Part shown: piece after piece, positions 1-12,840 of the stretch
Layout: each line of letters opens with the position of its first letter
Position numbering within the stretch: position 1 is the stretch's first letter
DNA from: a virus
IMG/VR virus record: IMGVR_UViG_3300047281_000061
Location: 1-21,282 of that record
Direction: 5' to 3' (one strand)
DNA: 21,282 nt
Notes under the pieces: generated by a model
Database searches by the model: none
What the model saw: the letters and a program-made list of their open reading frames with translations, nothing else
Told to the model about the DNA's origin: nothing
Position numbers and translations under genes: made by a program

Positions 1-1
1 T

Positions 2-172
2 AGCGGGCTTGTATTTCGTAACAATGAATTAGAAAAGTTTGCCGAGTTGATCGTCAAAGAATGTGCTCAACTCGCTCGTGACACCAATTTAGAAGATGTC
101 GAAGGTGGTGACAATGAAGTTTTGCGAGCCGCAAAACTTCAGATTCTAGAACATTTCGGAGTTGAAGAATGA
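2..172 (+). CDS. 3' end of a small conserved phage protein (partial)
   Basis: Only the last 56 codons are present; the gene enters from outside the window and ends at a TGA at 170-172. The readable part is acidic and helical, with the run KFAELIVKECAQLA followed by ILEHFGVEE at the C-terminus. This layout, a helix with LIVKECA and a short FGVE tail, is typical of small uncharacterised proteins seen repeatedly in T4-like phages, but no function can be assigned. Its last codons carry the ribosome binding site GGAG (158-161) for the next gene, whose ATG overlaps its stop as ATGA, so the two are translationally coupled. Confidence 0.75.
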   Translation, partial: SGLVFRNNELEKFAELIVKECAQLARDTNLEDVEGGDNEVLRAAKLQILEHFGVEE

Positions 173-315
173 TTGAAATTAGACCAAACATTGGCCGTAG
201 ATGGCTAGTCAACAAACCTTGGTATTGTGAAGGCGCGGTATGGAAACCAGCATTTGAATATTTCTATATCGAATCCGGCACACAATTTGAATTTGATTTC
301 GGAGTTGAAAAATGA
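169..315 (+). CDS. Small hypothetical protein, 48 aa
   Basis: A 48-residue product starting MIEIRPNIGRRW and ending EFDFGVEK. The start is supported by GGAG seven bases upstream and by the ATGA overlap with the preceding stop. It is rich in aromatic residues (several Trp, Tyr and Phe) and has no membrane segment. The end of the gene repeats the end of the gene before it: the 19-base string TTTCGGAGTTGAARAATGA occurs at both junctions, serving as C-terminal codons, ribosome binding site and stop/start together. Function unknown. Confidence 0.7.
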   Translation: MIEIRPNIGRRWLVNKPWYCEGAVWKPAFEYFYIESGTQFEFDFGVEK

Positions 316-635
316 GACTGATGTTAGGCACCAAGGAACGTCCAAGTTTGCTTGTTAATATAGGTCAAGAGTACGGTGCCGCACACTTTGACTTTTGGGT
401 GGTCAACGGCGCCTGGGAAGGTACATTCTATAATGGATATGTAACTGTACATCATCCTTATAACCCACATTCTAGTCTTGACCGAGTTGAAATTCTGTGT
501 AATAATCAAGACAGACTGCGATGTGGCGCCGGAGAATATCAAGATGTGTTCGACAACTTCCACGACGAGAACTATGTTGCACCCAAGCGTGAACCAGTGG
601 TATTTGCCGATATGGATGATGACATCCCTTTTTAA
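312..635 (+). CDS. Hypothetical protein, 107 aa
   Basis: A 107-residue protein that overlaps the previous stop as ATGA, with GGAG at 301-304 as ribosome binding site. It contains many aromatic and acidic residues, a central HHPYNPHSSLDRVEIL stretch and an acidic tail (DMDDDIPF). There are no signal peptide, membrane helix or recognisable catalytic motif. The acidic DDIPF ending resembles C-terminal tails of single-strand DNA-binding proteins, but the rest does not look like an OB fold, so this likeness is only noted. It belongs to the coupled run of small genes that leads to the macro-domain gene. Confidence 0.7.
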   Translation: MRLMLGTKERPSLLVNIGQEYGAAHFDFWVVNGAWEGTFYNGYVTVHHPYNPHSSLDRVEILCNNQDRLRCGAGEYQDVFDNFHDENYVAPKREPVVFADMDDDIPF

Positions 636-646
636 GGATTAGAAGA

Positions 647-817
647 ATGATTTTATTTGATAAAGAATATACCGGTGAATCCATTGTAGATATGGATCGT
701 GATGTTAATGAATTCTTTTCTGATTCATTGATTGACGATTTTGATATTCCGCAAGACGACAACGGTATCATGCAAGGCAGCTTCCGTGTCACAGTAGATT
801 GGGTACCGACAAAATGA
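647..817 (+). CDS. Small acidic hypothetical protein, 56 aa
   Basis: Reads MILFDKEYTGESIVDMDRDV onward to DWVPTK. A ribosome binding site AAGGA lies at 634-638, followed by AGAAGA directly before the ATG. The product is strongly acidic (many Asp and Glu) and short. The stop codon overlaps the next ATG as ATGA at 814-817, which keeps it in the same coupled cluster. No domain is recognised; the gene call rests on the overlap pattern, the ribosome binding site and codon use like its neighbours. Confidence 0.65.
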   Translation: MILFDKEYTGESIVDMDRDVNEFFSDSLIDDFDIPQDDNGIMQGSFRVTVDWVPTK

Positions 818-993
818 CAAATCAACATTACAATCGTTTAGAAGACGGTCCAATGGACGAGATTGATGCCGCTATTTGGAGTGGAGACTTGTTTCACAAT
901 CGTGAGAACATTGCTGCCTTCCGTAAAATGATGGCACGATGGGAACGCGGCCTGCAATCGTGCGAAGATATTTTGAATGAAGTACCAGAATGA
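814..993 (+). CDS. Small conserved phage protein, 59 aa
   Basis: Starts MTNQHYNRLEDGPMDEIDAA. The ATG at 814 is chosen over an in-frame TTG at 799 because it makes the ATGA overlap used throughout this cluster. The core, IDAAIWSGDLFHNRENIAAF followed by RKMMARWERGL, is a pattern I recall from many small phage proteins of unknown role. It is predicted helical and soluble. Its stop again overlaps the following start as ATGA. Confidence 0.7.
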   Translation: MTNQHYNRLEDGPMDEIDAAIWSGDLFHNRENIAAFRKMMARWERGLQSCEDILNEVPE

Positions 994-1277
994 TTTCATG
1001 TAAAATTGTAAACACTGATTGGGGCCATGTCATGAAGGTCCCACTGACCGGGGTTGGTACAATCTTTGGTGTAACCGTTACGATTGATAAACTCGCACTG
1101 CCGCAGTATGAAGTCAATCTATTAGAAATGCTATCAACCGAGACAGGGGTAAATCGCTTTATTGATTTTGTTAACGAGCATTTACCTGATGCTGACCTAA
1201 AGATCAAAGAAGAATTTGTAGCAGAATTTAAGTTATTCGTCAAGCGCAAGCGTGGCGATATTATACCAATTTTTTAA
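990..1277 (+). CDS. Hypothetical protein, 95 aa
   Basis: A 95-residue protein starting MISCKIVNTDWGHVMKVPLT, coupled by ATGA to the gene before. The first half looks like beta strands (VPLTGVGTIFGVTVTIDKL). The second half looks helical and charged (FIDFVNEHLPDADLKIKEEF) and ends in a basic stretch KRKRGDIIPIF. No catalytic or metal-binding motif is visible. The stop TAA is directly followed by the next ATG with no gap. Confidence 0.65.
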   Translation: MISCKIVNTDWGHVMKVPLTGVGTIFGVTVTIDKLALPQYEVNLLEMLSTETGVNRFIDFVNEHLPDADLKIKEEFVAEFKLFVKRKRGDIIPIF

Positions 1278-1394
1278 ATGAAACGCTATATCGCAGACAA
1301 AACGCACACTGTATTCCTTCCCTACGAAGACGGTATGATTGAATGGCTGAACGAACATTATCCACATTCTAAGTATAGAATTATCGAAGTATGA
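1278..1394 (+). CDS. Very small hypothetical protein, 38 aa
   Basis: The reading frame fills exactly the gap between its neighbours: its ATG abuts the TAA of the gene before and its TGA overlaps the next ATG as ATGA at 1391-1394. It encodes MKRYIADKTHTVFLPYEDGM and continues to HPHSKYR-like basic residues and IIEV. No strong ribosome binding site is visible, so it probably depends on translation of the upstream gene. Function unknown; the call rests on the perfect packing between neighbours. Confidence 0.55.
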   Translation: MKRYIADKTHTVFLPYEDGMIEWLNEHYPHSKYRIIEV

Positions 1395-1738
1395 AAAACA
1401 TATTTGAGATTGACGAAAGTTTTGTATGTAGTGAAATGAAAACCACATACCAAAGCACTCTTGAGAATCCAGATAATCCCACACCTGAGGATTTGATTAA
1501 GATTATCAAGGGCACACATCAGTGGACTACAACATCATCGGGTGATCATCCCGAATACGCAAAACTCAGAAATGAACTTGAAGCAAAAGGATTCATTACT
1601 ACAAGTCGTAATTCATGGAACGGTGATCACGTGCTAAAAGCATTCACACTGAACAGAGTCAAGTTCAACCCACCAGAGACATTTTATTCGGGTGCGGCAA
1701 TGGGATGGACATTAAAATCAAAGAGAAAAGAATTATGA
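1391..1738 (+). CDS. Hypothetical protein, 115 aa
   Basis: A 115-residue protein beginning MKNIFEIDESFVCSEMKTTY. A middle section TPEDLIKIIKGTHQW suggests a helix, followed by a charged helix EYAKLRNELEAKGFITTSRN that could be part of a small helix-turn-helix or winged fold, though this is not strong enough to call. The C-terminus is basic (LKSKRKEL). It ends in an ATGA overlap with the macro-domain gene, so the two are likely translated together. Confidence 0.65.
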   Translation: MKNIFEIDESFVCSEMKTTYQSTLENPDNPTPEDLIKIIKGTHQWTTTSSGDHPEYAKLRNELEAKGFITTSRNSWNGDHVLKAFTLNRVKFNPPETFYSGAAMGWTLKSKRKEL

Positions 1739-2220
1739 ACAAACTAATACACATCAAAGGCGATTTGATTAAACTTGCCCAACAAGGTGAATTCGACGTT
1801 ATCGTCCAAGGCTGTAATTGCTTTAACACCATGGGCAGTGGCCTGGCAAAACAGATTAAAGCAGAAATTCCTGAGGCATATCAAGTTGATCAGGAAACTG
1901 AGGCAGGTGATGTCAACAAGCTTGGTAATTACACCATTGCTGATATTCAAGTGGGTGCGAGTGGATTCACTGTAGTCAACGCATACACACAGTATGACTT
2001 CAACAAGACAGGTGAAACAGTTGATCATTTTGAATACTCCAGCTTTGAAGTCATCCTGCGTAAGTTAGAGATAAGAGCAGGCAGTTGCCGCTTTGGGTTC
2101 CCTCTAATCGGTATGGGGCTGGCGGGTGGTGATAAAGTGCGGATTATGACTCTTCTGGAGGCATTTGCTGTTCGGGTAAATGCGCAAGGTGGTTCTGTTA
2201 CTTTAGTAGAATTCGCTTGA
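1735..2220 (+). CDS. Macro-domain protein (ADP-ribose binding or processing)
   Basis: 161 residues, nearly all one macro domain. Family marks are GDLIKLAQQGEFDVIVQGCN at the start, the loop NCFNTMGSGLAKQI that lines the ADP-ribose pocket, VNAYTQY in the middle and FPLIGMGLAGGD near the end, which matches the phosphate-binding loop. Macro domains of this compact type bind ADP-ribose, and several remove the phosphate of ADP-ribose 1''-phosphate or release ADP-ribose from substrates; which activity applies here cannot be told. The ATG at 1735 is preferred over one at 1705 because of the ATGA overlap with the upstream gene. The gene stands directly before nadV, and its TGA stop lies inside the -35 box of the nadV promoter. 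Its place beside NAD+ salvage genes suggests a role in ADP-ribose metabolism during infection (inference). Confidence 0.9.
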   Translation: MNKLIHIKGDLIKLAQQGEFDVIVQGCNCFNTMGSGLAKQIKAEIPEAYQVDQETEAGDVNKLGNYTIADIQVGASGFTVVNAYTQYDFNKTGETVDHFEYSSFEVILRKLEIRAGSCRFGFPLIGMGLAGGDKVRIMTLLEAFAVRVNAQGGSVTLVEFA

Positions 2221-2245
2221 CTTTTAATACAAAGTCTGTTACAAT
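2217..2245 (+). promoter_or_regulatory. Sigma70-type promoter for nadV
   Basis: TTGACT at 2217-2222, a 17-base spacer and TACAAT at 2240-2245. The TGA stop of the macro-domain gene is inside the -35 box. The spacer begins TTTAATAC, as in the promoter at 3733. The early transcript AGATAAATACTAAGCAGCAA is a diverged form of the leader found at the other promoters. Confidence 0.85.
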
Positions 2246-2283
2246 AGATAAATACTAAGCAGCAAGGAGATAGACTCCGAGCA

Positions 2284-2314
2284 GACATTAATATAAAGGA
2301 TTTTTATATGTCAA
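2284..2314 (+). promoter_or_regulatory. 31-bp leader repeat over the nadV ribosome binding site and start
   Basis: Exactly the same 31 bases occur at 3794-3824, and the nearby GAGATAGAC (2267-2275) also recurs with the same 17-base offset. The element can fold: GACAT (2284-2288) pairs with ATGTC (2308-2312), then after a TAAT bulge ATAAA (2293-2297) pairs with TTTAT (2303-2307), leaving GGATT in the loop. The ribosome binding site would sit in the loop and the start codon in the stem, which fits a translational operator. The folding is read by eye only. Confidence 0.6.
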
Positions 2315-3717
2315 TTACTAAAAACATCATTCTCAATTCCGACTCGTATAAATACAGTCAATTTAATCAGTATCCTTCTGGTACTGAATATGTATACTCT
2401 TACATTGAGTCCCGAGGCGGGCAGTGGAACGATACTGTATTTTTCGGTCTTCAGGCGTTCATCAAAGAGTACCTAACTACCCCGATCACCAAGGAAGATA
2501 TCGATGTCGCAGAAGCTATCATCACAGCCCACGGAGAACCTTTCAACCGAGCAGGTTGGGAATATATTCTTAACACACACGGAGGCAGGTTACCTGTTAC
2601 TATCCGAGCAGTACCAGAAGGAACGATTGTCCCGATTAAAAACGTCCTTGCGACAATTGAGAACACTGACCCAAAATGTTTCTGGCTTACCTCATTCCTT
2701 GAGACGGCTCTCCTTCGTGCAATTTGGTATCCAACAACTGTAGCAACTAACAGCTACGAATCTAAAAAAATCATTCTACAAGCATTGGAGAAAACTGGTG
2801 ATCCTACAACTATTGATTTTAAGTTGCACGACTTTGGTGCTCGTGGCGTGTCTAGTATGGAGTCTGCAGGGATTGGGGGAGCCGCACACCTTGTTAACTT
2901 CATGGGTACAGATACTATCTCTGGCATTTTATATGCTCGTGAATATTATAACGCTGGGGTTGCTGGCTTTAGTATTCCAGCTATGGAACATAGTACTGTA
3001 ACAAGCTGGGGTAAAGAAAATGAAGTTGACTCGTACCGCAACATGGTCAAGCAAAACGCCAAACAAGGTGGTATCTTTGCTTGTGTCTCAGACAGCTATG
3101 ACATTTACGAAGCCTGCAAACTCTGGGGCACGGTCCTTAAACAAGATGTCCTTGACTCAGGCGCAACTTTGGTCGTCCGGCCAGACTCGGGTAACCCCAG
3201 TGACGTGGTTGTAAAGTGTTTGTACATTCTTGAGAAGTACTTTGGTTCTACTACTAACGCAAAAGGCTTTCGTGTATTGAACCCAGCGGTTCGTATCATC
3301 CAAGGTGATGGTATTGATCACGCCAGTATTCACAGCATTTTGTTCTGTATGGAACTTGCAGGATTCAGTGCTGACAATGTGGCATTTGGTCAAGGTGGAG
3401 CGTTGCTTCAACGTGTGGATCGTGACACAATGCAATGGGCAATGAAGTGTAGCGCAATCGGTGTTAACACTAACGGTGAACTACCTTACTGGCGCGATGT
3501 TTACAAAGACCCTGTCACTGATAGCGGCAAGCGTAGCAAGCGTGGTCGTGTTACACTTTGGGAATCGGGTGGTGAATATCAATCATCAGTAACTCAGCCA
3601 ATGGGATGGACTGATAAAGGTACTGTATGGACTGATGTTCTAGCAGAAGTCTATCGTGATGGTGCTCTTGTAAAAGAAATCACCTTTGACGAAGTTCGAG
3701 CAAACGCACGCAAATAA
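2308..3717 (+). CDS. nadV: Nicotinamide phosphoribosyltransferase (NAMPT/NadV)
   Basis: 469 residues, close to the 491 of human NAMPT and similar to phage NadV. It joins nicotinamide to PRPP to give NMN, the first step of NAD+ salvage from nicotinamide. Family motifs run the full length: SDSYKYSQFNQYPSGTEYVY (11-30), FWLTSFLETALLRAIWYPTT (125-144), LHDFGARGVSS (173-183, Asp175 matching human Asp219), SIPAMEHST (222-230, His228 matching the phosphorylated His247), VSDSYDIYEACKLWG (260-274), VVRPDSGNP (289-297, Arg291 and Asp293 matching Arg311 and Asp313), RIIQGDGID (329-337) and FGQGGALLQ (360-368). All catalytic positions I can align are kept, so the enzyme is probably active. It has its own promoter and a leader repeat shared with the next unit, which encodes the enzyme for the second step. 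Confidence 0.97.
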   Translation: MSITKNIILNSDSYKYSQFNQYPSGTEYVYSYIESRGGQWNDTVFFGLQAFIKEYLTTPITKEDIDVAEAIITAHGEPFNRAGWEYILNTHGGRLPVTIRAVPEGTIVPIKNVLATIENTDPKCFWLTSFLETALLRAIWYPTTVATNSYESKKIILQALEKTGDPTTIDFKLHDFGARGVSSMESAGIGGAAHLVNFMGTDTISGILYAREYYNAGVAGFSIPAMEHSTVTSWGKENEVDSYRNMVKQNAKQGGIFACVSDSYDIYEACKLWGTVLKQDVLDSGATLVVRPDSGNPSDVVVKCLYILEKYFGSTTNAKGFRVLNPAVRIIQGDGIDHASIHSILFCMELAGFSADNVAFGQGGALLQRVDRDTMQWAMKCSAIGVNTNGELPYWRDVYKDPVTDSGKRSKRGRVTLWESGGEYQSSVTQPMGWTDKGTVWTDVLAEVYRDGALVKEITFDEVRANARK

Positions 3718-3732
3718 GCAGGAAATTATAGC

Positions 3733-3761
3733 TTGACTTTTAATACAGGTCATGCTATAAT
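3733..3761 (+). promoter_or_regulatory. Sigma70-type promoter for the 3818-natV unit
   Basis: TTGACT at 3733-3738, a 17-base spacer starting TTTAATACA, and a perfect TATAAT at 3756-3761. It lies in the short gap after nadV and drives the gene at 3818 together with natV. Confidence 0.88.
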
Positions 3762-3769
3762 AAGTCATA

Positions 3770-3794
3770 CAGTAGAGAGATAGACCTTCTACTG
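3770..3794 (+). promoter_or_regulatory. Leader stem-loop near the transcript 5' end
   Basis: CAGTAGA (3770-3776) is a perfect complement of TCTACTG (3788-3794), with an 11-base loop that contains GAGATAGAC. It begins only a few bases after the expected transcription start and could shield the mRNA 5' end or serve as a protein-binding site. The matching region of the nadV leader keeps the loop sequence but shows only a short GGAG/CTCC pairing. Confidence 0.5.
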
Positions 3795-3824
3795 ACATTA
3801 ATATAAAGGATTTTTATATGTCAA
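3794..3824 (+). promoter_or_regulatory. 31-bp leader repeat over the start of the 3818 gene
   Basis: The second exact copy of the 31-base element at 2284-2314, including ribosome binding site AAAGGA, the start codon and the first two bases of codon 2 onward (both proteins begin MS). The same hairpin with the start codon in the stem can form. Sharing this element between nadV and the natV unit suggests that both steps of NAD+ synthesis are controlled together (inference). Confidence 0.6.
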
Positions 3825-4171
3825 GCAAAACATTCACCATTTCAAAAGCCTACGTCTTATCAGCAATCAACAAATTAGGTAAGCGTGTCTATTACGACAT
3901 CGATTACCATAGCGGCGGTTATTCATATTGGAGCGTATATTCGCTTAGTTGCAAACGATTTGACTCCTTGGATAAAATCCCAACATTTCGCGGCACTGAC
4001 TATATGCTTACTGACGTAGTTACGCTGGAAGTACTTGAAATCAAAGAACAAGCTAGAGTAGTTGAATCAACTGAACTTGTTTCGGAAGCCCGAGCAAAAG
4101 CAATGTTAGAGATTGTCGAAATTGAAAAAGAGCTGGCTCGCAAAGTTGCTATGTTGGGAGACACAAAATGA
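3818..4171 (+). CDS. Hypothetical protein between nadV and natV, 117 aa
   Basis: A 117-residue protein starting MSSKTFTISKAYVLSAINKL. The first 70 residues carry many Tyr and Ser (YYDIDYHSGGYSYWSVYSLS) and look beta-rich; the last 45 residues form a charged helix (ARAKAMLEIVEIEKELARKV) that could be a short coiled coil. I do not recognise the family. Its stop overlaps the natV start as ATGA, and its leader is identical to that of nadV, so it is regulated with and translated next to the NAD+ enzymes. A partner or regulatory role in NAD+ metabolism is possible but rests on position only. Confidence 0.8.
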   Translation: MSSKTFTISKAYVLSAINKLGKRVYYDIDYHSGGYSYWSVYSLSCKRFDSLDKIPTFRGTDYMLTDVVTLEVLEIKEQARVVESTELVSEARAKAMLEIVEIEKELARKVAMLGDTK

Positions 4172-5190
4172 AAAAATACGACACACTAGTCCTAATCGGT
4201 CGCTTTCAACCATTCCACACCGCTCACTTGTTGCTGGCGCATCGTGCTACTGCAAATTGTAAGCAATTGATCTTTATCTGCGGCAGCGCCAATCAGCCAC
4301 GCACTTATAAGAACCCGTTTACCTTTGCTGAACGTAGACAAATGATTAAGTCGGCAACTGCTGGACTAACAGGTACACTGTCAATTCAAGTTGAAGCAAA
4401 TCCAGACACTATCTACAATGACCAAGCGTGGGCTGTTCGTATACAAGCATTAGTTGCCAAGCACACCAAGCAAGGTGACCGAGTTGGTATCATTGGTCAC
4501 AAGAAAGATCCAAGCAGTTTCTATCTTGACATGTTTCCACAGTGGGGCTTTGAAGAAGTTGAACTACTGGAGCCACTGGATGCTACTGATATTCGCAACT
4601 TGTATTTCAAGCGTGATGTCAATATGAATTTCATCCGCAATGTTGTTCCGCAAACTACTTTTGACTTTCTGGATCAATTCAAATCAACTCCTGAATACGA
4701 ACAAATTATCCGTGAGCGTGAGTTCATCATTGAAAACAAAAAGCAATATGCCAGCTTAAAGTATCCTCCTATCTTTTCAACTGCTGATGCTGTTGTTATT
4801 CAATCAGGTAATGTATTGATGATTAAACGTCGGGCTGAACCCGGTAAAGGTCTATGGGCATTGCCCGGCGGTTATGTTAACGCAGAAACTGATAAGACTG
4901 TAGAAGATGCTGCTATCCGTGAATTGCGTGAAGAAACAATGATCAAAGTGCCCAGTCCTGTGCTACGCGGATCCATTGTTCGCAGTAAAGTGTTTGATGC
5001 TATTGATCGTAGCCCTCGTGGTCGTATTATCACACACGCATTTTACATTCAATTGCCCGATGGTGAGTTGCCTAAAGTAAAAGGCAGTGACGATGCTGAG
5101 AAAGCACGGTGGGTTCCAATCGCAGAGGTTCGCAGTGAAGAATGCTTTGAAGACCATTACGAAATCCTAATGTCATTCCTCGGCGCTTGA
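4168..5190 (+). CDS. natV: Bifunctional NMN adenylyltransferase / Nudix hydrolase (NatV/NadM-type)
   Basis: 340 residues with two domains. Residues 1-185 are a nucleotidyltransferase: GRFQPFHTAH at 11-20 gives the ATP-binding HxxH pair (His17, His20) and DATDIR at 138-143 is the second signature of NadM-type enzymes. This half makes NAD+ from NMN and ATP. Residues 200-340 are a Nudix domain: LWALPGGYVN (229-238) and RELREET (251-257) form the box with the metal-binding Glu pair 255-256. The gap between the GG and RE parts is about two residues longer than the textbook box, as in some ADP-ribose pyrophosphatases. Fused NadM-Nudix proteins of this kind are known from bacteria and phage KVP40, where the Nudix half cleaves ADP-ribose. 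With nadV it completes nicotinamide to NAD+. Its TGA stop lies in the next -35 box. Confidence 0.95.
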   Translation: MKKYDTLVLIGRFQPFHTAHLLLAHRATANCKQLIFICGSANQPRTYKNPFTFAERRQMIKSATAGLTGTLSIQVEANPDTIYNDQAWAVRIQALVAKHTKQGDRVGIIGHKKDPSSFYLDMFPQWGFEEVELLEPLDATDIRNLYFKRDVNMNFIRNVVPQTTFDFLDQFKSTPEYEQIIREREFIIENKKQYASLKYPPIFSTADAVVIQSGNVLMIKRRAEPGKGLWALPGGYVNAETDKTVEDAAIRELREETMIKVPSPVLRGSIVRSKVFDAIDRSPRGRIITHAFYIQLPDGELPKVKGSDDAEKARWVPIAEVRSEECFEDHYEILMSFLGA

Positions 5191-5215
5191 CATTTAATCC
5201 AAAAGCTGTTATAAT
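5187..5215 (+). promoter_or_regulatory. Sigma70-type promoter with standard phage leader
   Basis: Perfect TTGACA (5187-5192), 17-base spacer, perfect TATAAT (5210-5215). The natV stop codon overlaps the -35 box. The transcript starts with AGATACTTAGACAGCAAC, the leader shared with the - strand promoters at 17344-20954. It drives the run 5248-7098. Confidence 0.9.
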
Positions 5216-5247
5216 AGATACTTAGACAGCAACAAACAGGACTTAAA

Positions 5248-5670
5248 ATGAGCACAAATTCAGTAATCGGCGTAATGCATGGCGACAATTGTAAGGCAGT
5301 TTACTGTCATTCAGACGGTTACCTGAGCTACAACGGTCAGGTCCTGCTTGACAACTATGACTCTCCTAAGGCAAATCATCTGATTGCAATGGGCGATATA
5401 AGTGCTCTGGGCAAAACAATCGGCGAGAAAATCAATTTCAATGATGGTATGGAATATGATGAAAATCATGTTGCCAAGCAATGTCGTTTCTACGGCCGTG
5501 ATCGTGGAGAGACGGGTATTGAATTCACTTCTGTTAGTAGCTTTGCTCAATTGTGTGAGCATTTTGATTCTGAATACTATTACATTATGAAAGATGATGT
5601 ATGGTATGTAAGCATCGGTGGCGCTAAGTTGCTGGTGTTGTCTGAGGTTCTGACGAAGGAAGTGGCATAA
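5248..5670 (+). CDS. Conserved phage protein, 140 aa (unknown function)
   Basis: Begins MSTNSVIGVMHGDNCKAVYC and continues HSDGYLSYNGQVLLDNY. This N-terminal pattern (a Ser-rich start, a short turn, then KAVYCHxDGYxxxNG) is one I recall in small proteins of many tailed phages, with no known function. The ribosome binding site AGGA sits in the standard leader. The protein is soluble and beta-rich, with a cluster of aromatic residues (EYYYIMKDDVWYVSIGG) near the end. Its TAA overlaps the next ATG by one base. Confidence 0.8.
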   Translation: MSTNSVIGVMHGDNCKAVYCHSDGYLSYNGQVLLDNYDSPKANHLIAMGDISALGKTIGEKINFNDGMEYDENHVAKQCRFYGRDRGETGIEFTSVSSFAQLCEHFDSEYYYIMKDDVWYVSIGGAKLLVLSEVLTKEVA

Positions 5671-5999
5671 TGGAAGCAGTCGTAGAAACAACAGTATGGT
5701 CTGGCGCAGCGCAGCCTAATCATACTTATTTGTTTGATGGCAACAAGATGCTGGCTTACATTAAGAAAAATGATACTGTTCCTTTTTACTTTAAAGAGCC
5801 TATCACAATTGACAAGCGTGGTCGCAAGTTTGTGGCAGCTAAGCCAAATCCCTTCAAAGCAATCAAGGAAAAAGATACAGTTATCAAAGTGTCAGGCAGC
5901 AAAGGTGCTGTCTACTCTATTGATACAGAAAGCAAGACTTGCACTTGCGCGGGATTTCAATTTCGCGGAACCTGTAAGCATTTAATAGCGATAGCATGA
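5670..5999 (+). CDS. Small SWIM-type zinc-finger protein, 109 aa
   Basis: The C-terminal segment YSIDTESKTCTCAGFQFRGT continuing CKHL has the SWIM layout CxC...CxH: Cys91, Cys93, Cys102 and His104. SWIM fingers bind nucleic acid or proteins and occur in plant transposases, SWI2/SNF2 proteins and some phage proteins. The N-terminal 60 residues hold no known domain, but include two basic patches (IKKND, DKRGRKFVAAK). The finger is at the very end of the chain, leaving only five residues after His104. Likely a small DNA- or protein-binding factor; it overlaps both neighbours by 1 and 4 bases. Confidence 0.8.
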   Translation: MEAVVETTVWSGAAQPNHTYLFDGNKMLAYIKKNDTVPFYFKEPITIDKRGRKFVAAKPNPFKAIKEKDTVIKVSGSKGAVYSIDTESKTCTCAGFQFRGTCKHLIAIA

Positions 6000-6262
6000 T
6001 TTATTACAAGATTAGAAGTAAAGACAACCCAGTGATGTTTGTATCTGGCACTCCAGATTATAATCGCTATGATAATATTGGACGAATCTTTCAAAAGATT
6101 GGAGGGTTGCGGTCATTCTTAACAATGGTTATGAACAACCAAAATCAGAGTCACAAAATATCAGATTGGGAAATCGTTGAGATTGAAATGGTAGTAAAAG
6201 AAGTAAAAGGTGTTCACGAGGTGATCACCCAAAAGAAATTAATGGAATTATTAACAAAATGA
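5996..6262 (+). CDS. Hypothetical protein, 88 aa
   Basis: An 88-residue protein starting MIYYKIRSKDNPVMFVSGTP, joined to both neighbours by ATGA overlaps. The N-terminal part (YYKIRSK...FVSGTPDYNRYD) looks beta-rich, followed by a helix (NIGRIFQKIGGLRSFLTMVM) and another beta/helix unit (WEIVEIEMVVKEV). The order suggests a small alpha/beta fold, perhaps related to phage proteins that modify or bind host factors, but no family is recognised. Confidence 0.7.
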   Translation: MIYYKIRSKDNPVMFVSGTPDYNRYDNIGRIFQKIGGLRSFLTMVMNNQNQSHKISDWEIVEIEMVVKEVKGVHEVITQKKLMELLTK

Positions 6263-7098
6263 AAATCGCAGTATGCTCGGATCTCCATCTTGAATTTCAA
6301 GATATCAACCTTCAAAACACTGAAGGCGCAGAGGTCCTTATTCTCTCAGGTGATATCTTTATCGCTGAAGACTTACACAGTCATCCAGAAACAAAGTACA
6401 GCCATTTAGAAATCAAAGCACTTCAGCACGGCCAGGCTCGTGCGCAGAAATTTCGTGACTTTCTGAAACGGTGTAGCTTTCAGTTTCCCCACGTGGTGTA
6501 TGTTGCGGGTAACCATGAGTTCTATCACGGACGCTGGACCGCAAGCATTCAACATTTGCGTGAAGAATGCGCCAAGTTTCCTAATGTGTATTTTCTCGAA
6601 CAAGATATCAAGGTCATCAATGATGTTACTTTCATGGGCGGCACATTGTGGACTGATTGTAACAAAGGTGATCCACTGACGCTTCACGCTTTGACTGATA
6701 TGATGAACGACTTTAAAATCATCCGCAATGATGATTTGGGTTATACTAAACTGCGCCCTGCTCACACAGTGATTCGGCATCGTAAAACTGTTCAATACTT
6801 TGATAGTGTCCTGGCTGATCGTAAAGATCAAAAGTGTGTTGTAGTTGGGCATCATGTTCCTACTTTCAACAGTACCCATGAACGGTACGCTGGTCAGTAT
6901 TTGATGAACGGTGGCTATCGTTCGGATCTTAGTGAATTCATCTTGGATCGTCCGCAGATTGCTCTATGGACCCATGGTCACACCCATGATCCGTTCGACT
7001 ACATGGTTGGTGATACTCGCGTGGTTTGTAACCCTCGAGGTTACGCGGGCCACGATGAACAAGCTGCTGTGTTTGAATTGAAGTTTCTGGACATATAG
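6259..7098 (+). CDS. Calcineurin-like metallophosphoesterase
   Basis: 279 residues with the full set of metallophosphoesterase motifs: SDLHLE (7-12, Asp8 and His10), SGDI (30-33, Asp32), AGNHE (83-87, Asn85 and His86), VGHHVP (196-201, His198) and THGHTHD (238-244, His241 and His243). These residues hold the two metal ions. The family includes phosphodiesterases, nucleotidases and phosphatases; the substrate cannot be told from the motifs. Phage copies are often placed with nucleotide-metabolism genes, as here. It is the last gene of the unit that starts at the 5187 promoter, and a strong hairpin follows it. Confidence 0.92.
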   Translation: MKIAVCSDLHLEFQDINLQNTEGAEVLILSGDIFIAEDLHSHPETKYSHLEIKALQHGQARAQKFRDFLKRCSFQFPHVVYVAGNHEFYHGRWTASIQHLREECAKFPNVYFLEQDIKVINDVTFMGGTLWTDCNKGDPLTLHALTDMMNDFKIIRNDDLGYTKLRPAHTVIRHRKTVQYFDSVLADRKDQKCVVVGHHVPTFNSTHERYAGQYLMNGGYRSDLSEFILDRPQIALWTHGHTHDPFDYMVGDTRVVCNPRGYAGHDEQAAVFELKFLDI

Positions 7099-7102
7099 AC
7101 TG

Positions 7103-7133
7103 TAGCATTTGGGGAACAAAGACCCAAATGCTA
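7103..7133 (+). terminator. 11-bp stem-loop after the phosphoesterase gene
   Basis: TAGCATTTGGG (7103-7113) is a perfect complement of CCCAAATGCTA (7123-7133), with a nine-base loop GAACAAAGA. There is no T-run after it, so it is not a textbook intrinsic terminator; it could be a weak terminator, a 3'-end protecting hairpin, or a binding site. Its right arm ends exactly where the -35 box of the next promoter starts. Confidence 0.6.
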
Positions 7134-7162
7134 TTGCGTCTGACATGAAAATGTATTATAAT
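7134..7162 (+). promoter_or_regulatory. Sigma70-type promoter for the winged-helix gene
   Basis: A weaker -35 TTGCGT (7134-7139), 17-base spacer and a perfect TATAAT (7157-7162). It lies directly after the 7103-7133 hairpin and upstream of the regulator at 7215. The leader differs from the standard one. Confidence 0.7.
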
Positions 7163-7214
7163 AGTAACACGCTGCGAGATTCACTCTATGCGAAATAACT
7201 TAAAGGAAATTAAA

Positions 7215-7478
7215 ATGACTTCAACTACTAAAATGACTAAACAAGAACTCTTGATCGAAGCACTGGCAACTGGTGAGCAACTTACTGCTTCACAAATTAC
7301 TACACGCTTTGGCATTGCCAATCCAACAGCTACTGTTAGCTCGTTGCGTTTGAATGGCGGATACGCTGTTTATGCTAACAAGCGTGTCAATGAAACTGAG
7401 ACTCGCTATCGCTTGGGTCGCCCAAGCCGCGCCGTCGTCGCTGCTGGTTACCGCGCAATTGCTGCTGCGAATCTGTAA
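7215..7478 (+). CDS. Small winged helix-turn-helix protein, 87 aa
   Basis: 87 residues. The core KQELLIEALATGEQLTASQI followed by TTRFGIANPTATVSSLRLNG shows a helix-turn-helix, and GYAVYANKRV...TRYRLG forms the beta wing. This small winged-helix type is frequent in T4-like and cyanophage genomes and is thought to bind DNA. The tail (RPSRAVVAAGYRAIAAANL) is basic and Ala-rich. The ATG at 7215 is chosen because AAAGGAAA lies just before it; an in-frame ATG at 7188 has no ribosome binding site. Likely a phage transcription regulator; its target is unknown. Confidence 0.82.
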   Translation: MTSTTKMTKQELLIEALATGEQLTASQITTRFGIANPTATVSSLRLNGGYAVYANKRVNETETRYRLGRPSRAVVAAGYRAIAAANL

Positions 7479-7510
7479 TAGTTATATTTCAGTCTTGTAA
7501 TAAGATTGTA

Positions 7511-7566
7511 TAGGTAAGACAGGCACCCGAAAACAAAGCCTGTTACAAAATTTTTATACTTGCCTA
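7511..7566 (+). promoter_or_regulatory. Nested stem-loop in the leader of the cupin-like gene
   Basis: Two nested pairings are visible: ACAGGC (7519-7524) with GCCTGT (7538-7543), and outside it TAGGTAAG (7511-7518) with CTTGCCTA (7559-7566) with one G-T pair. The outer right arm runs into the ribosome binding site AGGGG (7566-7570) of the next gene. ATTTTTAT lies between the arms. This could be a terminator/attenuator or a structure affecting translation; no known riboswitch class is recognised. Confidence 0.45.
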
Positions 7567-7575
7567 GGGGTTTCA

Positions 7576-8079
7576 ATGGGATTATTTCACACTATTATGA
7601 ACAAATTGGGCAGGTATCGGCTGATTCCAGATCGCCAAACGGGAGCAGATTACATGCACCGTTATTATCTCTTTCTAAAAGATCGCAGTTGGTTTCCATT
7701 CAACTTCACGCTGCACAAAATTGTTCGCAGTGATGACCCGGTCTTTCATGATCATCCTTGGTCTTATACAACACTGGTCCTTAAAGGTGGGTACTGGGAA
7801 CATGTCCCTATCTTTAATAAAGAAGGGAAGAAGTTTGCTGAATTCTCTCACTGGAGGGGTCCAGGCAGTATCATCCATCGTAAAGCAAACGAGTATCACT
7901 GGTTAGAATTGGATGACGAGAAGCCAACTACTACTTTATTCTTCATGGGTTCTCAAAAGAGAGAATGGGGATTTTTAGTAGAAACAAAAAAAGGACTACA
8001 TCGTTGGATTGATAATAATCACTATCTGACTGATTGGAAATCTTATCACACAAAACACATCGCAACAAAGAAAAAATAA
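7576..8079 (+). CDS. Cupin-like protein, 167 aa
   Basis: A 167-residue protein whose core RSDDPVFHDHPWSYTTLVLK (51-70) and GGYWEH (71-76) matches the first cupin motif, with His58, His60 and possibly His76 as metal ligands; a second part RKANEYHWLEL (102-112) adds His108. The C-terminal GFLVETKKGLHRWIDNNHYL is also typical for these small phage and plasmid cupins. The fold is probably a single metal-binding beta barrel; the reaction is unknown. The ribosome binding site AGGGG is five bases before the ATG. Its TAA overlaps the following ATG by one base. Confidence 0.8.
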   Translation: MGLFHTIMNKLGRYRLIPDRQTGADYMHRYYLFLKDRSWFPFNFTLHKIVRSDDPVFHDHPWSYTTLVLKGGYWEHVPIFNKEGKKFAEFSHWRGPGSIIHRKANEYHWLELDDEKPTTTLFFMGSQKREWGFLVETKKGLHRWIDNNHYLTDWKSYHTKHIATKKK

Positions 8080-8360
8080 TGAACGACCAAACAAAAGAAA
8101 TCATGCTGATCCTACAAGAAGAGGCCGCTGAAGTTATTCAGGCAGTCAGCAAGTGTATGCGCTTTGGTCCAGATCAAATCAAACCGGGTAAAAATGTAAC
8201 TAACCTCAGTATGCTTGAAGAAGAAATTGGCGATCTTCTGGCAATGGTTGAACTGTTAACTGATATGAATATTGGGGTGACAGTTGAGGGTTTACAACAA
8301 GCTAAAAAGAATAAGTTTGAAAAACTGAAACTTTGGTCAAGTATTACTATTAATAAATAA
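8079..8360 (+). CDS. MazG-like nucleotide pyrophosphohydrolase, 93 aa
   Basis: 93 residues. The all-helical MazG/HisE-type fold is indicated by QEEAAEVIQAVSKCMRFG (13-30) and by MLEEEIGDLLAMVELL (45-60). Glu14, Glu15, Glu18, Glu48 or Glu49 and Asp52 are the expected magnesium ligands. Proteins of this family split nucleoside triphosphates to the monophosphate and pyrophosphate, and phage copies are thought to clean up altered nucleotides or act on alarmone-related pools. The start at 8079 is preferred over upstream in-frame starts because it forms a TAATG overlap with the cupin gene; no strong ribosome binding site is present. Confidence 0.83.
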   Translation: MNDQTKEIMLILQEEAAEVIQAVSKCMRFGPDQIKPGKNVTNLSMLEEEIGDLLAMVELLTDMNIGVTVEGLQQAKKNKFEKLKLWSSITINK

Positions 8361-8364
8361 CAGT

Positions 8365-8703
8365 ATGGAATACATTATCACAGGTCTTATTACCTTTGTT
8401 CTAGGATGGTTCATTGGTACTCTCTTATTGCGAGTTAAGCTGCGAATAGCATTGGAAACTCTTGTTCAACAAGAGATTGATAGTACAATAGCAAAAATCC
8501 CATCACTGCGTACTGAAGTGCGTTCTGGAATTATTTTTGTGTACGACTCAGTTACCAGTGCTTTCATGTGTCAAGGCACATCACTGGAAGATGTTGCTAA
8601 AAAATTAAATGATATTTGCCACGTGGCATTTGCCCAAGTTAATCACGTAGATCAATATTATATGATTGTTGATGGCTATGTAAAAGCAACGGACGCAGAT
8701 TGA
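8365..8703 (+). CDS. Membrane-anchored hypothetical protein, 112 aa
   Basis: Residues 4-23 (IITGLITFVLGWFIGTLLLR) form one membrane helix, followed by a positively charged stretch, which suggests the C-terminal 85 residues lie in the cytoplasm. The soluble part has a helical section (ALETLVQQEIDSTIAKI) and a beta-rich section (IIFVYDSVTSAFMCQGTS). I recall similar anchored proteins in T4-like phages of aquatic bacteria, with no known role. The stop overlaps the next start as TTGA. Confidence 0.7.
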   Translation: MEYIITGLITFVLGWFIGTLLLRVKLRIALETLVQQEIDSTIAKIPSLRTEVRSGIIFVYDSVTSAFMCQGTSLEDVAKKLNDICHVAFAQVNHVDQYYMIVDGYVKATDAD

Positions 8704-8963
8704 ATTCATTTGAGCATATTGCCAAGCAGCTTTCGACTAGATGCTGGCCTGCTGATAAAGTCAACACAATTGATATGAGTGACTACGAGATTTTTTGCAA
8801 AGAATATGTATTCGACAACCTCAGAGGAATCTCATTCGGAGAATCTTTTTGTAGGAAATTTGATATTACTGACTTTGTATTAAGCATTCTACCAAATGAA
8901 ATAAGTGCAAAAAAGCACATTGAAACTATAGGCTATATTAAAAATGACATATCTAGTAACTGA
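8700..8963 (+). CDS. Conserved phage protein, 87 aa, probable TTG start
   Basis: 87 residues from a TTG that overlaps the preceding TGA; the first in-frame ATG (8775) would remove 25 residues. The core [20 protein letters not shown] followed by [10 protein letters not shown] has the pattern FxxYxFxxLxGxxxGxxFCxxFxIxD, which I recall from many small phage proteins of unknown function. Two cysteines besides Cys55 region are not arranged as a metal site. It overlaps the ferredoxin gene by 20 bases, so the two are coupled. Confidence 0.65.
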
Positions 8964-9267
8964 AAATTGTATTAAGTGTAAACACACAGACTGTGTAGAA
9001 GTGTGCCCAGTTGACTGTTTCTATGAAGGCCCAAACTTTCTGGTCATCAATCCAGACGAATGTATTGACTGTGGGGTTTGTGTACCCGAGTGTCCAATTA
9101 ACGCAATTGTACCGGATACAGACAAAAAGATCGATGTAATCTTTTGGACTGACTTGAATTCGCGCCTCAGTGATAAATGGCCGTCAATCACTAAACGTAA
9201 GCCGGCGCCCGATGATGCTGCTGAATGGAAAGACAAACCTAACAAAATTGATTTGTTGGAAGAATGA
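8944..9267 (+). CDS. fdxA: Seven-iron ferredoxin, FdxA type
   Basis: 107 residues, the same length as bacterial FdxA with its start Met. Nine cysteines at 9, 12, 17, 21, 25, 40, 43, 46 and 50 match those of Azotobacter ferredoxin I when its missing Met is allowed for. In that protein the counterparts of Cys9, 17 and 50 bind the 3Fe-4S cluster and Cys21, 40, 43 and 46 the 4Fe-4S cluster. The FdxA-specific C-terminal tail is present too ([20 protein letters not shown]), so this is a full cellular-type electron carrier and not a short fragment. The start Met is followed by [11 protein letters not shown] as in proteobacterial copies, which suggests capture from such a host (inference). It overlaps both neighbours (20 and 4 bases), so it belongs to the phage operon. 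Its redox partner is unknown. Confidence 0.95.
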
Positions 9268-9785
9268 AACAAAAATATATTGACCTGTATATGGACTGGG
9301 CAAACAGAACTGCTCAATTAAGCCATGCCAAACGATTACAGGTAGGCGCAGTTATTGTAAAAGATGATTCAGTTATCAGTTACGGCTACAATGGTATGCC
9401 TGCAGGATGGGATAACAACTGTGAAGCTGAAGAATTTATGAGTGGTGATGCTGGAGGTTGGCTAAGTCCAGAAGAGATTTACGAAAGCTGGCCCTTTGTT
9501 GAAGATGACTTAGACCCCGATTTAGGTTATGCCAGACGTTATCGTTTAAAAACTAAACCAGAGGTCCTCCATGCTGAATCCAATGCGATTGCGAAGCTGG
9601 CCAAATCAAGTCAAAGCGGCCGTGATGCTAGTGTTTTTATTACTCATGCTCCTTGTCTTGATTGTGCCAAACTTATATACCAAAGCGGCATATCTAGTGT
9701 ATACTATCGCAATAGTTATAGGGACGTGGCAGGAATAGAATTTCTAGAAAAGAGTGGCGTCAGTGTTACCCAATACTCTGTATAA
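9264..9785 (+). CDS. Deoxycytidylate (dCMP) deaminase
   Basis: 173 residues. The zinc motif HAESNAI (103-109, His103 and catalytic Glu105) and PCLDC (130-134, Cys131 and Cys134) are complete. The N-terminal [20 protein letters not shown] followed by [14 protein letters not shown] is the form seen in T4-type dCMP deaminases. The enzyme turns dCMP into dUMP, feeding dTMP synthesis for phage DNA. A long section between residues 53 and 100 separates the substrate loop from the zinc motif, as in phage deaminases that carry a regulatory region for dCTP/dTTP. It overlaps the ferredoxin stop by four bases. Confidence 0.94.
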
Positions 9786-9969
9786 TTACACTGCGTTAAT
9801 TGACATACCGTTCGGTGAACTAACGGCTGTAATTGATTGGTGTAATACCAATAATATTGAGCACTGGGATTACTGTATGATTGATAGCGCAGGGGCCCTA
9901 CCGGGTAAATACGAATTTCACTTTACAGCCGAATATGATTACATAAACTTTATGTTATGGAAACGATGA
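9763..9969 (+). CDS. Small hypothetical protein, about 68 aa, GTG start
   Basis: The frame begins inside the dCMP deaminase gene; GTG at 9763 is chosen with AAAGAG about eight bases before it, and another GTG at 9754 would add three residues. The product contains [20 protein letters not shown] and WCNTNNIEHWDYCMIDSAGA, and ends DYINFMLWKR. It looks like a small alpha/beta protein with three tryptophans and ends in an ATGA overlap with the carboxypeptidase gene. Not recognised. Confidence 0.6.
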   Translation: MLPNTLYNYTALIDIPFGELTAVIDWCNTNNIEHWDYCMIDSAGALPGKYEFHFTAEYDYINFMLWKR

Positions 9970-10703
9970 TTAAATTTATTATAGCAACAGCATTATTACT
10001 ATCAACTAATCTATATGCTGCCCCAACATCAATCACTGCCCAAGCTTGGCTAGTGGCAGACGAGAATGGCAAAGTGCTGGAAGGGGTAAACACAGGCGAT
10101 GTCCGCTCTATTGCCAGCATAACTAAATTAATCACAGTAATGACAGTGCTGGACGGTAATCAATCACTTGATGAAATCATATCAACAAAACTTTATCATA
10201 AGCAATTATCCAGAAGAATGCTAATGGAAATGGCAATTGTGAAGTCAGACAATAATGCTGCTACTATTTTATGTGAGCAGTACCCCGGTGGGTATTATGA
10301 ATGCCTTCACATGATGAATCGAAAAGTACAAGAATTAGAAATGTTTGATACACGTTTGCTAGATTCAACTGGATTACGCAGTGAGAACGTTAGTACCCCA
10401 ACTGATTTACTAAAGTTGGTACAGGCAGCAAGCAATTACCCCTTCATTGTGGAAACAAGCAAGCTCTCTGATATTAAACTTCAGACTAAGAAAAATAAGT
10501 GGATCACATTACGAAACACTAATCCATTAGTGGGTCACGGATATGACTTCATTGTTAGCAAGACAGGCTTTATAAATAAAAGCGGCGGATGTATTGTTAT
10601 GAAGCTTAAAACGTTACATGGGATTAGAACAGTTGTCCTATTGGGTAGCAAGAATACACGCACTCGTATACCTGAAGCTGCGCTGATATCAAAACTATAC
10701 TAG
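9966..10703 (+). CDS. Secreted D-alanyl-D-alanine carboxypeptidase-like protein (S11 family)
   Basis: 245 residues. Residues 1-18 (MIKFIIATALLLSTNLYA) are a signal peptide with a cleavage site after LYA. All three penicillin-binding motifs are in order: SITK (51-54, nucleophile Ser51), SDN (94-96) and KTG (199-201). The length fits the catalytic domain alone, without the C-terminal domain and membrane anchor of large DacA proteins, so it resembles small PBP7-like enzymes. Such enzymes trim or cut stem peptides of peptidoglycan in the periplasm. In a phage it may change the wall after entry, help lysis or hinder other phages (inference). ATG 9966 is preferred over 9957 because of the ATGA overlap and the GGA in front. 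Its TAG stop shares CTAG with the opposing gene. Confidence 0.92.
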   Translation: MIKFIIATALLLSTNLYAAPTSITAQAWLVADENGKVLEGVNTGDVRSIASITKLITVMTVLDGNQSLDEIISTKLYHKQLSRRMLMEMAIVKSDNNAATILCEQYPGGYYECLHMMNRKVQELEMFDTRLLDSTGLRSENVSTPTDLLKLVQAASNYPFIVETSKLSDIKLQTKKNKWITLRNTNPLVGHGYDFIVSKTGFINKSGGCIVMKLKTLHGIRTVVLLGSKNTRTRIPEAALISKLY

Positions 10704-10891
10704 TACAGTCGGCTAAGAGGGGGCCATCCTTGTTTAAACCAGGCGCATTGATTTAGTATTATGATAACATCATTTGTGCTTGCGTCGAGCCACTTAGCAG
10801 CCAGTTGTACAAATTTGTACCAATCTTCTATATAAGTAGGATTATCTTGTTGCCAAGCCTGATACATATGCTGAAGTGACTGAGTGTACAT
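10700..10891 (-). CDS. Small hypothetical protein, 63 aa
   Basis: Last gene of the - strand operon 11582-10700. The product MYTQSLQHMYQAWQQDNPTY and onward has a high content of aromatic and Gln residues, with six Trp in 63 residues, and no membrane segment. Its start overlaps the stop of the gene before by one base (TAATG). Its TAG stop and the TAG stop of the convergent carboxypeptidase gene share the four bases CTAG at 10700-10703. Not recognised. Confidence 0.65.
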   Translation of the reverse strand: MYTQSLQHMYQAWQQDNPTYIEDWYKFVQLAAKWLDASTNDVIIILNQCAWFKQGWPPLSRLY

Positions 10892-11373: not shown

Positions 11374-11582
11374 GATGTTCGAGGCACCAGCATATTCCTA
11401 CAAATTTCAAAGCTACTCCCCTTTTGAGACTTTACATATTCATTTGCGCCGTATGTAACCGGCTTTCCTTTGATTGGCGACCGAAGTTCGCATACCTCTT
11501 TAATAACCCGCTCAGTATTAGGCCATGGATTCGCTGAAGAGGTAGGCAGGAAGAACAGCATTGCTGTGATTATGGTTTGCAT
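11370..11582 (-). CDS. Small secreted hypothetical protein, 70 aa
   Basis: Residues 1-17 (MQTIITAMLFFLPTSSA) look like a signal peptide; the mature part starts NPWPNTERVIKEVCELRSPI and holds two cysteines (EVCEL and FEICRN) that may form a disulfide in the periplasm. There is no lipobox, so it is not an outer spanin lipoprotein. It is the first gene of the - strand operon, placed next to the membrane protein 10891-11373 and close to the secreted carboxypeptidase on the other strand. An envelope or lysis accessory role is possible but unproven. Confidence 0.72.
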   Translation of the reverse strand: MQTIITAMLFFLPTSSANPWPNTERVIKEVCELRSPIKGKPVTYGANEYVKSQKGSSFEICRNMLVPRTS

Positions 11583-11590
11583 GAGATACG

Positions 11591-11604: not shown

Positions 11605-11629
11605 TCTTATTTTTATTACCCACACTCTA

Positions 11630-11658: not shown

Positions 11659-11699
11659 ATTATTTAAGTGACCTATATCAACATTAATAGCATTACATT

Positions 11700-12837: not shown

Positions 12838-12840
12838 TAC

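Follow-up and report, generated by a model that had tools for sequence, protein, structure and literature searches.

The virus record IMGVR_UViG_3300047281_000061, a fragment of 21,282 bases that is called the window here, carries a macrodomain gene (macro) beside nadV and natV, two genes for the reconstitution of NAD+, with a fourth gene, orfX, lying between nadV and natV. The association of macro with nadV and natV recurs among phages beyond chance and is real, and it surrounds a pathway that is already known, the NAD+ reconstitution pathway NARP2. We read the locus as an early-expressed NARP2-type cassette for NAD+ reconstitution in which macro serves as an accessory processor of ADP-ribose, a reading to which we give a probability of about 0.45.

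To follow the association we used viral loci fetched by NadV (best 80 of 265), by the macro protein (best 80 of 104) and by NatV (best 80 of 136), samples that lean toward close relatives of the window and in which a few loci recur in more than one scan. Rates from the macro-fetched loci (nadV in 62/80) were set aside as circular. Among the NadV-fetched loci, macro lies within 2 kb of nadV in 40 of the 80 and each time upstream, it is on the same strand in all 45 macro-bearing loci, and natV is found in 73/80. Macro presence was called by hidden Markov model (45/80), the count used here, while single-linkage BLAST gave 53 loci including the window, and the thresholds for such labels vary slightly between the analyses of macro counts. 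The natV-nadV cassettes reduce from 158 loci to 95 distinct ones once loci with no partner within 4 kb or with an identical nadV are dropped, and macro is inside or within 2 kb of 33/59 distinct cassettes from the NadV fetch, 47/62 from the NatV fetch and 59/95 in their union. At these 95 cassettes macro occurs at a density of 177 per Mb within the cassette, dropping to 6.1 in the first 2 kb outside and to 2.2 at 2-10 kb. The first-pass annotation had named co-occurrence beyond chance as one test of its proposal, and the result bears it out both in these cassettes and in long contigs: 29 of the 80 NadV-fetched contigs are at least 62 kb long, phrog_335, the family of the phage macro, is present in 19 and absent in 10, and all 19 have it no more than 7 kb from nadV and 16 no more than 2 kb from it, against 0.78 expected under uniform placement for contigs that are not independent, some being near copies.

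The commonest gene order with macro is natV-macro-nadV, several loci have orfX-natV-macro-nadV, and the window itself has macro-nadV-orfX-natV, so that the neighbour pairs macro-nadV and orfX-natV are mostly kept although the order swaps. A FastTree phylogeny of NadV (143 rows from 164, sequences shorter than 350 residues or more than 90% alike having been dropped) separates NARP2 from the second pathway type, NARP1, by a single change but requires at least 18 changes of macro presence within NARP2 and at least 7 within NARP1, numbers that carry a long-branch warning and the risk that short flanks mislabel a locus as having no macro. The starred branches of this tree force 14 changes for NARP2 with macro and 7 for NARP1 with macro. 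The link is thus not one inherited block and has been made or broken many times. A tree of the macro proteins (107 rows, SH-aLRT, 9 of 104 branches starred) needs 16 changes of NARP linkage, its starred branches forcing at least three per type; it was judged too weak to guide us on origins.

The NARP1 pathway, in which a Prs-like Adps stands beside Namat, gave a second view of the same association. A scan with a Prs/Adps alignment yielded 80 loci (best 80 of at least 551), of which 79 have a NadV-like gene no more than 6 kb away; in 75 of the 79 that gene matches a relaxed Namat motif. The pruning used for the natV-nadV loci leaves 77 distinct prs-namat cassettes of these 80, and macro is inside or within 2 kb of 10 of them. 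Vibrio phages Bennett (L234 among our fetched loci) and JSF10 (L251) have the order prs-macro-namat, and in Pseudomonas phages PsCh (L237) and Boevelstad (L250) macro follows a few genes after namat. Twenty named records were also inspected, of which Bennett, PsCh and HY02 were picked partly for a macro known in them or in their kin and the others for taxon spread; phrog_335 occurs in 12 of the 20, and only Bennett, JSF10, PsCh and Boevelstad have it no more than 2 kb from that NadV-like gene.

NARP2 consists of a phage Nampt together with a nicotinamide mononucleotide (NMN) adenylyltransferase. The window NadV matches Pfam NAMPT_N plus NAPRTase and phrog_448 (E = 2.9e-161), and its nearest solved structure is the NAMPT-like 7yqo (E = 1.3e-166), which we take to be from Xanthomonas. 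Namat, the NARP1 enzyme, bears the motif GSx6TRD (PMC12774641; here and below, papers are cited from excerpts of their text). At that place the window NadV has GGALLQRVDRD and is therefore of the Nampt type, which makes the nadV-natV pair NARP2-like; a confusion of Nampt with Namat was considered and ruled out by this clamp motif. NatV joins Pfam CTP_transf_like and NUDIX in one chain, with RELREET in its Nudix box, and matches phrog_395 (E = 6.3e-77) and, over nearly its full length, the bifunctional NMN adenylyltransferase/Nudix hydrolase 2qjo (E = 2.2e-81). Judged by sequence, a Nampt-type NadV and an NMN adenylyltransferase are thus encoded by the same phage, and the NARP2-type pair and the Nudix half of NatV that the first-pass annotation had proposed both stand. 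An Adps beside Namat was not found in the window, where NadV lacks the Namat motif and has natV rather than prs as its partner; the record being a fragment, Adps could lie elsewhere. The Nudix half of NatV from phage KVP40 reportedly prefers ADP-ribose. In KVP40, NatV and NadV suffice for salvage (PMC6715854, PMC7139368).

The macro protein is less easily recognized. It matches no Pfam family at E <= 1, and PF01661 has no match in the record, its curated cut-off not being reached; the Pfam macro model was accordingly rejected as an identifier of this protein, and phrog_335, a homologue profile and the fold were used instead. The match to phrog_335 (annotated 'phosphatase') has E = 3.6e-41, and this family comprises phage macros of the T4 tk.4 group, the tk.4 label standing on one listed match (H32) and 'Poa1p-like' on one listed member. 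Fifty-five of 66 aligned phage homologues match PF01661 at E <= 0.1, the window member not among them, and a profile of all 66 searched against the PDB found 2afc (E = 2.4e-17) and 5e3b, which is SCO6735 (8.5e-17), as well as 2fg1, Poa1p, DarG and TARG1. The AlphaFold2 model of the window protein (mean predicted local distance difference test score, pLDDT, 96.8) is closest to 2fg1 (Z 19.7, r.m.s.d. 2.9, 153 aligned residues), followed by DarG (Z 18.4), TARG1 (17.7), Poa1p (17.4) and SCO6735 (16.6), with coronavirus macrodomains at 13-14. On these grounds the protein is modelled as a macrodomain of the ALC1/TARG1/DarG class, in keeping with the macro identity given in the first-pass annotation. 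Such proteins are widespread, the macro query being matched in 2593 of 50,697 phage records.

Asn28 and Gln86 are invariant in 66/66 homologues and are equivalent to Asn27 and Gln85 of SCO6735. The catalytic Lys of TARG1 and DarG (K84/K80) is absent, its place being taken by Gln86 in 66/66, and at the position of the TARG1 catalytic Asp (Asp125) these proteins have Ala (62) or Gly (4). SCO6735 Gln85 stands for the TARG1/DarG catalytic lysine, and the Q85A mutation abolishes cleavage of thymidine-linked ADP-ribose (PMC9411070). Two further SCO6735 features are not conserved in the phage proteins, namely Lys34, needed on DNA, which is Ser, Gly or Ala in 65/66, and the SCO6735-specific Val25 (or Ile), which is Gly in 65/66. 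It is credible that the macro protein is an ADP-ribose hydrolase or binder. That it binds an ADP-ribose signal as a sponge or sensor rather than acting as an enzyme would suit the lack of the TARG1 Lys and Asp and of the Poa1p His23 and Phe152, and a Gln at the place of the lysine is common to ALC1 homologues (PMC9411070); we nevertheless hold this to be improbable, as SCO6735 has the same Asn/Gln pair and is an enzyme (PMC9411070).

We also considered a housekeeping role, in which macro removes ADP-ribose 1''-phosphate that arises from RNA repair, from RES-type toxins or as a by-product of ADP-ribose pyrophosphate (ADPR-PP) in NARP1. Residues His23, Ser30 and Phe152 of Poa1p, which have functional roles, are those mutated in its deposited structures; the window macro has Gln25, Thr32 and Ala130 instead. 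Of the 66 homologues, 37 have His and 29 have Gln at the position of His23, and 62 have Ala and 4 have Gly at that of Phe152. The annotations 'phosphatase' and 'Poa1p-like', the match to Poa1p structures at Z 17 and the RNA ligases found near several cassettes speak for such a role, yet the Poa1p residues are replaced and NARP2 makes no ADPR-PP, which leaves it a slim chance.

The interval that natV and nadV, or prs and namat, enclose can be treated as a slot whose contents differ between phages. A census of 119 and 92 such intervals, with macro-fetched and named loci included, returned 393 genes in 159 families, the largest of which is macro with 76 genes (67 NARP2, 9 NARP1). The second largest (48 members), whose example is a short open reading frame (ORF), was read as overlap or leader sequence and not counted. 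A family of 15 genes matches Nuc_deoxyri_tr2 (PF15891, E = 5.6e-36 for one member), which we take to be the DrHyd group of the TIR-SLOG clade; in the fetch made without macro it lies inside 11/95 NARP2 cassettes, and on the NARP1 side 4/77 cassettes have it inside or no more than 2 kb away, with none at 2-10 kb. NADAR contributes three genes and is in the slot of Synechococcus phage B23, where it matches PF08719 with E = 2.6e-48, and of Xanthomonas phage XacN1. A SLOG-like family, also of three genes and with a weak DprA match below its cut-off, is inside 3/95 NARP2 cassettes. One NARP1 cassette (L280:8753-9688) has the order prs, deoxyribosyltransferase-like gene, NADAR-family gene, namat, and so holds two accessory domains in one slot. 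In three others (L248:4393-4923, from Cronobacter phage GAP31, L259:8771-9301 and L267:8774-9304) a 177-residue protein, phrog_23621 as checked for L248, sits in the prs-namat slot, where macro is found in others; we regard phrog_23621 as a candidate new ADP-ribose-handling protein.

The gene between nadV and natV in the window, orfX, has 15 distinct homologues (window included), all 2-255 bases upstream of natV (for example L039, L052, L114 and L171), and it follows natV when gene order changes. The proteins share the stretch YYDxDxHSGGYxYWS, and the AlphaFold2 model (pLDDT 84.5) has a beta core plus a C-terminal helix; no Pfam family and no PDB fold match at E <= 0.001 was found for it. We suggest tentatively, as something possible rather than probable, that in both chemical types of NAD+ reconstitution cassette one slot can be filled interchangeably by proteins that convert or bind ADP-ribose derivatives (macro, deoxyribosyltransferase-like, NADAR, SLOG-like, RyDEP, phrog_23621 and orfX). 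Jointly these would disarm the signal or adduct that the host makes from ADP-ribose and bring the two halves of NAD+ back into use. If this is true, reading slot contents would be a route to new counters to Thoeris-like immunity.

The mechanism that we envisage starts from a host NADase or ADP-ribosyl-based defence that would break NAD+. NadV would convert nicotinamide plus phosphoribosyl pyrophosphate (PRPP) to NMN, and the adenylyltransferase half of NatV would convert NMN plus ATP to NAD+, both activities being established for the families and predicted here from sequence. Macro would most likely remove ADP-ribose from a host-made derivative and release it free, the Nudix half of NatV could split ADP-ribose to AMP and ribose 5-phosphate, and the cell could turn these into ATP and PRPP, the co-substrates of NatV and NadV. 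The substrate of macro is more probably a small derivative, a signal or toxic metabolite, than DNA. Four points favour this: macro accompanies two NAD+ reconstitution pathways that differ in chemistry, other and unrelated folds that handle ADP-ribose occupy the slot too, the lysine that contacts DNA has been lost, and RyDEP, encoded in a NARP1 operon, offers a precedent by analogy. The presence elsewhere of a deoxyribosyltransferase-like, NADAR or SLOG-like gene in the place of macro suggests that NAD+ reconstitution cassettes regularly carry a function for clearing ADP-ribose derivatives, and that the gene which provides it can be exchanged. Whether the substrate is a small derivative or a DNA or RNA adduct, the product would be ADP-ribose, which the NatV Nudix could split.

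The main rival to this proposal, since SCO6735 (on DNA) and NADAR (on DNA and RNA) do so in vitro, is that macro strips off ADP-ribose which DarT or similar host toxins have attached to DNA, RNA or protein, and is grouped with NAD+ repair as such toxins also spend NAD+. By its fold, macro belongs with DarG, TARG1 and SCO6735 (Z 16.6-18.4), the invariant Asn/Gln pair matches that of SCO6735, in which the glutamine is needed for thymidine-ADP-ribose hydrolysis (PMC9411070), and NADAR, in the slot of a few phages, removes guanosine-linked ADP-ribose (PMC11125620). Set against this, the SCO6735 DNA-contact Lys34 is not kept, an E. coli phage NADAR of the gp30.3 type, though active in vitro, gave cells no protection from DarT1 (PMC11125620), and the Nuc_deoxyri_tr2 and SLOG-like slot genes misfit the role. 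We therefore think reversal of toxin-made adducts unlikely.

Several observations weigh against the reading of the locus as a cassette with an accessory ADP-ribose processor. ALC1, of the same fold class, is a binder. The Gln that replaces the TARG1/DarG lysine also occurs in ALC1 homologues (PMC9411070), and the substrates of SCO6735, whose Asn/Gln pair is the same, are DNA and protein adducts. No macro is inside or within 2 kb of 36/95 natV-nadV cassettes, nor of 67/77 NARP1 cassettes; at the 77, macro is modestly enriched, with 33.8 per Mb within the cassette, 10.2 in the first 2 kb outside and 7.6 at 2-10 kb. The other 8 of the 12 macro-bearing named phages have macro at least 7.8 kb from the NadV-like gene, a distance that for HY02 joins the ends of a linear record and is about 76 kb along it. 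A macro-centred sample (best 80 of at least 499, from a query alignment headed by an unlinked Aeromonas phage macro and with 4 of 12 rows NARP1-linked) has nadV or natV within 2 kb in 15/80, lacks both within 2 kb in 65/80 and has neither in the available flanks in 61/80. NADAR is in 0/95 NARP2 cassettes and shows no excess around the 77 NARP1 cassettes (4.8 per Mb inside, then 6.8 and 3.0). Two close relatives (L005 and L011) have the order nadV-natV-macro, promoter-like sites from a consensus scan divide macro from nadV and nadV from orfX, and the slot also admits unrelated genes, among them a 12-member family with a radical-SAM example, a homing endonuclease and many short ORFs.

Some of the same facts, namely the unrelated slot genes, the promoter-like sites between genes and, on the NARP1 side, a modest excess of macro and none of NADAR, would be expected if the genes were together only through a shared, shuffled early accessory region. 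We give this a very small probability, because macro density falls so steeply from the inside of NARP2 cassettes to their flanks and because the pairing mostly survives changes of order and recurs beside different NARP1 enzymes. Macro is not exclusive to the NAD+ cassette and is not required by it. The earlier proposal of a three-part NAD+ restoration cassette is upheld in part, for the NARP2 pair, the Nudix domain, the macrodomain fold and the co-occurrence, and needs amending where macro is concerned, which also occurs away from nadV and natV (65/80 macros), is missing at 36/95 natV-nadV cassettes and joins NARP1 cassettes as well.

NARP2 restores NAD+ from other metabolites, according to a review and citing passages. 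The window has the same two enzymes as KVP40, a Nampt-type NadV and a bifunctional NMN adenylyltransferase/Nudix NatV, and differs in adding macro and orfX. In the KVP40-like phage PVA23 macro is about 83 kb from nadV by the shorter way round the circular record, and there is no natV within 5 kb of nadV; this one near relative of KVP40 indicates that the link is not universal. A functional parallel is the NARP1 operon of mycobacteriophage DyoEdafos, in which RyDEP, described as the founding degrader of 2'/3' cyclic ADP-ribose (2'/3'cADPR), cleaves this signal and feeds NAD+ synthesis (PMC13232231). It is likewise an NAD+ reconstitution set with an accessory gene acting on an immune signal derived from ADP-ribose, whereas its core is Adps and Namat and RyDEP is a glycosidase with a RyR domain, not a macrodomain (PMC13232231). 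Compared with SCO6735, DarG and TARG1, the window macro shares the fold class and the invariant SCO6735 Asn/Gln pair, and differs in lacking SCO6735 Lys34 and the TARG1/DarG lysine and in being a stand-alone phage protein.

Earlier work has proposed that small ADP-ribose derivatives are countered by phage proteins of the Macro, NADAR, SLOG and Nudix families and that NAD+ is restored by NadV/NadM, and it places NADAR next to NadM/NadV (PMC9503650, PMC7824862); the excerpted text of these two papers, figures apart, holds no statement of a recurrent macro in a NadV/NadM or Prs/NadV cassette. Rheinheimera phage Barba19A has NAPRTase, ribose-phosphate pyrophosphokinase and a macrodomain protein in a row (gp033-gp035), an arrangement that is NARP1-like and without natV; the macro was classed under host signalling and no link was drawn in the excerpts (PMC6715854). 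The first-pass annotation held that the set would extend the known pathway, which is only partly so: the concept is largely printed (2021-2022 in PMC9503650 and PMC7824862, and PMC13232231), and the recurrent macro adjacency is the part that we did not find stated in the excerpted literature, which excludes figures, and it may still be in print. Direct evidence for deconjugating activity is, in the excerpt of PMC9503650, described as lacking for phage versions outside toxin-antitoxin systems. The repeated linkage of macro to both NAD+ reconstitution pathways supplies a concrete pathway in which phage macros can be tested, and the slot names further candidate proteins that break or bind ADP-ribose immune signals.

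The arrangement of the window locus is given in Table 1. The macro, nadV and natV genes called earlier proved to be intact ORFs with the same boundaries, all on the + strand, as is orfX; a longer alternative frame of macro would start at 1705. Two features go beyond the first-pass annotation, namely orfX itself and the strong promoter-like sites before nadV and before orfX.

Table 1. Features of the macro-nadV-orfX-natV locus, in window coordinates
Feature	Position	Strand	Description
115-residue ORF	1391..1738	+	stop codon overlaps macro start (ATGA)
macro	1735..2220	+	stand-alone macrodomain modelled as ALC1/TARG1/DarG class, 161 residues, N28 + Q86
promoter-like site upstream of nadV	2217..2245	+	sigma70-like, TG ahead of -10, 10/12; consensus match only
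leader with AAAGGA ahead of nadV	2284..2310	+	exact repeat of 3794-3820
nadV	2308..3717	+	predicted nicotinamide phosphoribosyltransferase, Nampt type, not Namat
promoter-like site upstream of orfX-natV	3733..3761	+	sigma70-like, TG ahead of -10, 11/12; consensus match only
leader copy 2, ahead of orfX	3794..3820	+	exact repeat of 2284-2310
orfX	3818..4171	+	117-residue protein; 4-base overlap with natV start (ATGA)
natV	4168..5190	+	predicted NMN adenylyltransferase (residues 9-64 matched) fused to Nudix hydrolase (206-333, about 4783-5166)
promoter-like site directly 3' of natV	5187..5215	+	sigma70, 12/12; consensus match only

The ATGA overlaps that join two gene pairs, the 115-residue ORF with macro and orfX with natV, suggest translational coupling. 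The ORF itself matched no PHROG at E <= 0.01, and its best Pfam hit was a weak one to HEPN_LA2681 (E = 0.23). The 27-base leader with its ribosome site has two exact matches, before nadV and before orfX, and none in shuffled sequence, and the copy before orfX is mostly conserved in an alignment of four relatives; folds of the two leaders gave no clear signal (z -2.78 and -1.07). The promoter scan that gave the sites of Table 1 found 13 in all against 9.6 expected, and a scan of bases 1-19999 found 63 against 52.8 expected from shuffles (standard deviation 7.9). As the whole scan is barely above shuffles, only near-perfect sites carry weight, and none is evidence of function. Seven sigma70-like sites with TG ahead of the -10 match at 12/12 in bases 1-19999, the one closing Table 1 on the + strand and six on the - strand at 16763-19249; together with the repeated leader they look like a set of host-type early promoters, from which we infer early expression by host polymerase. 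Because promoter-like sites precede nadV and orfX, macro, nadV and orfX-natV need not share one transcript, and as separate transcripts are possible 'cassette' is a safer name than 'operon'.

Around the cassette in other phages, a 359-residue family lies just downstream of nadV in 45 of the NadV-fetched loci and looks like an AAA ATPase, and genes resembling rIIA and rIIB are beside the cassette in 21 loci each, all of these being named by eye. These neighbours suggest a wider region that may serve counter-exclusion.

Elsewhere in the window, a ferredoxin-like protein with a DUF3470 tail is encoded at 8944-9267 (phrog_8732, E = 1.4e-43) and is a possible redox auxiliary gene. The same record has a metallophosphoesterase (phrog_1649) at 6259-7098, a P-loop/polynucleotide-kinase-like protein at 19246-19734 and a metal-dependent phosphohydrolase (phrog_990) at 20203-20643, families that are often named in counter-defence through nucleotide signals or RNA repair.

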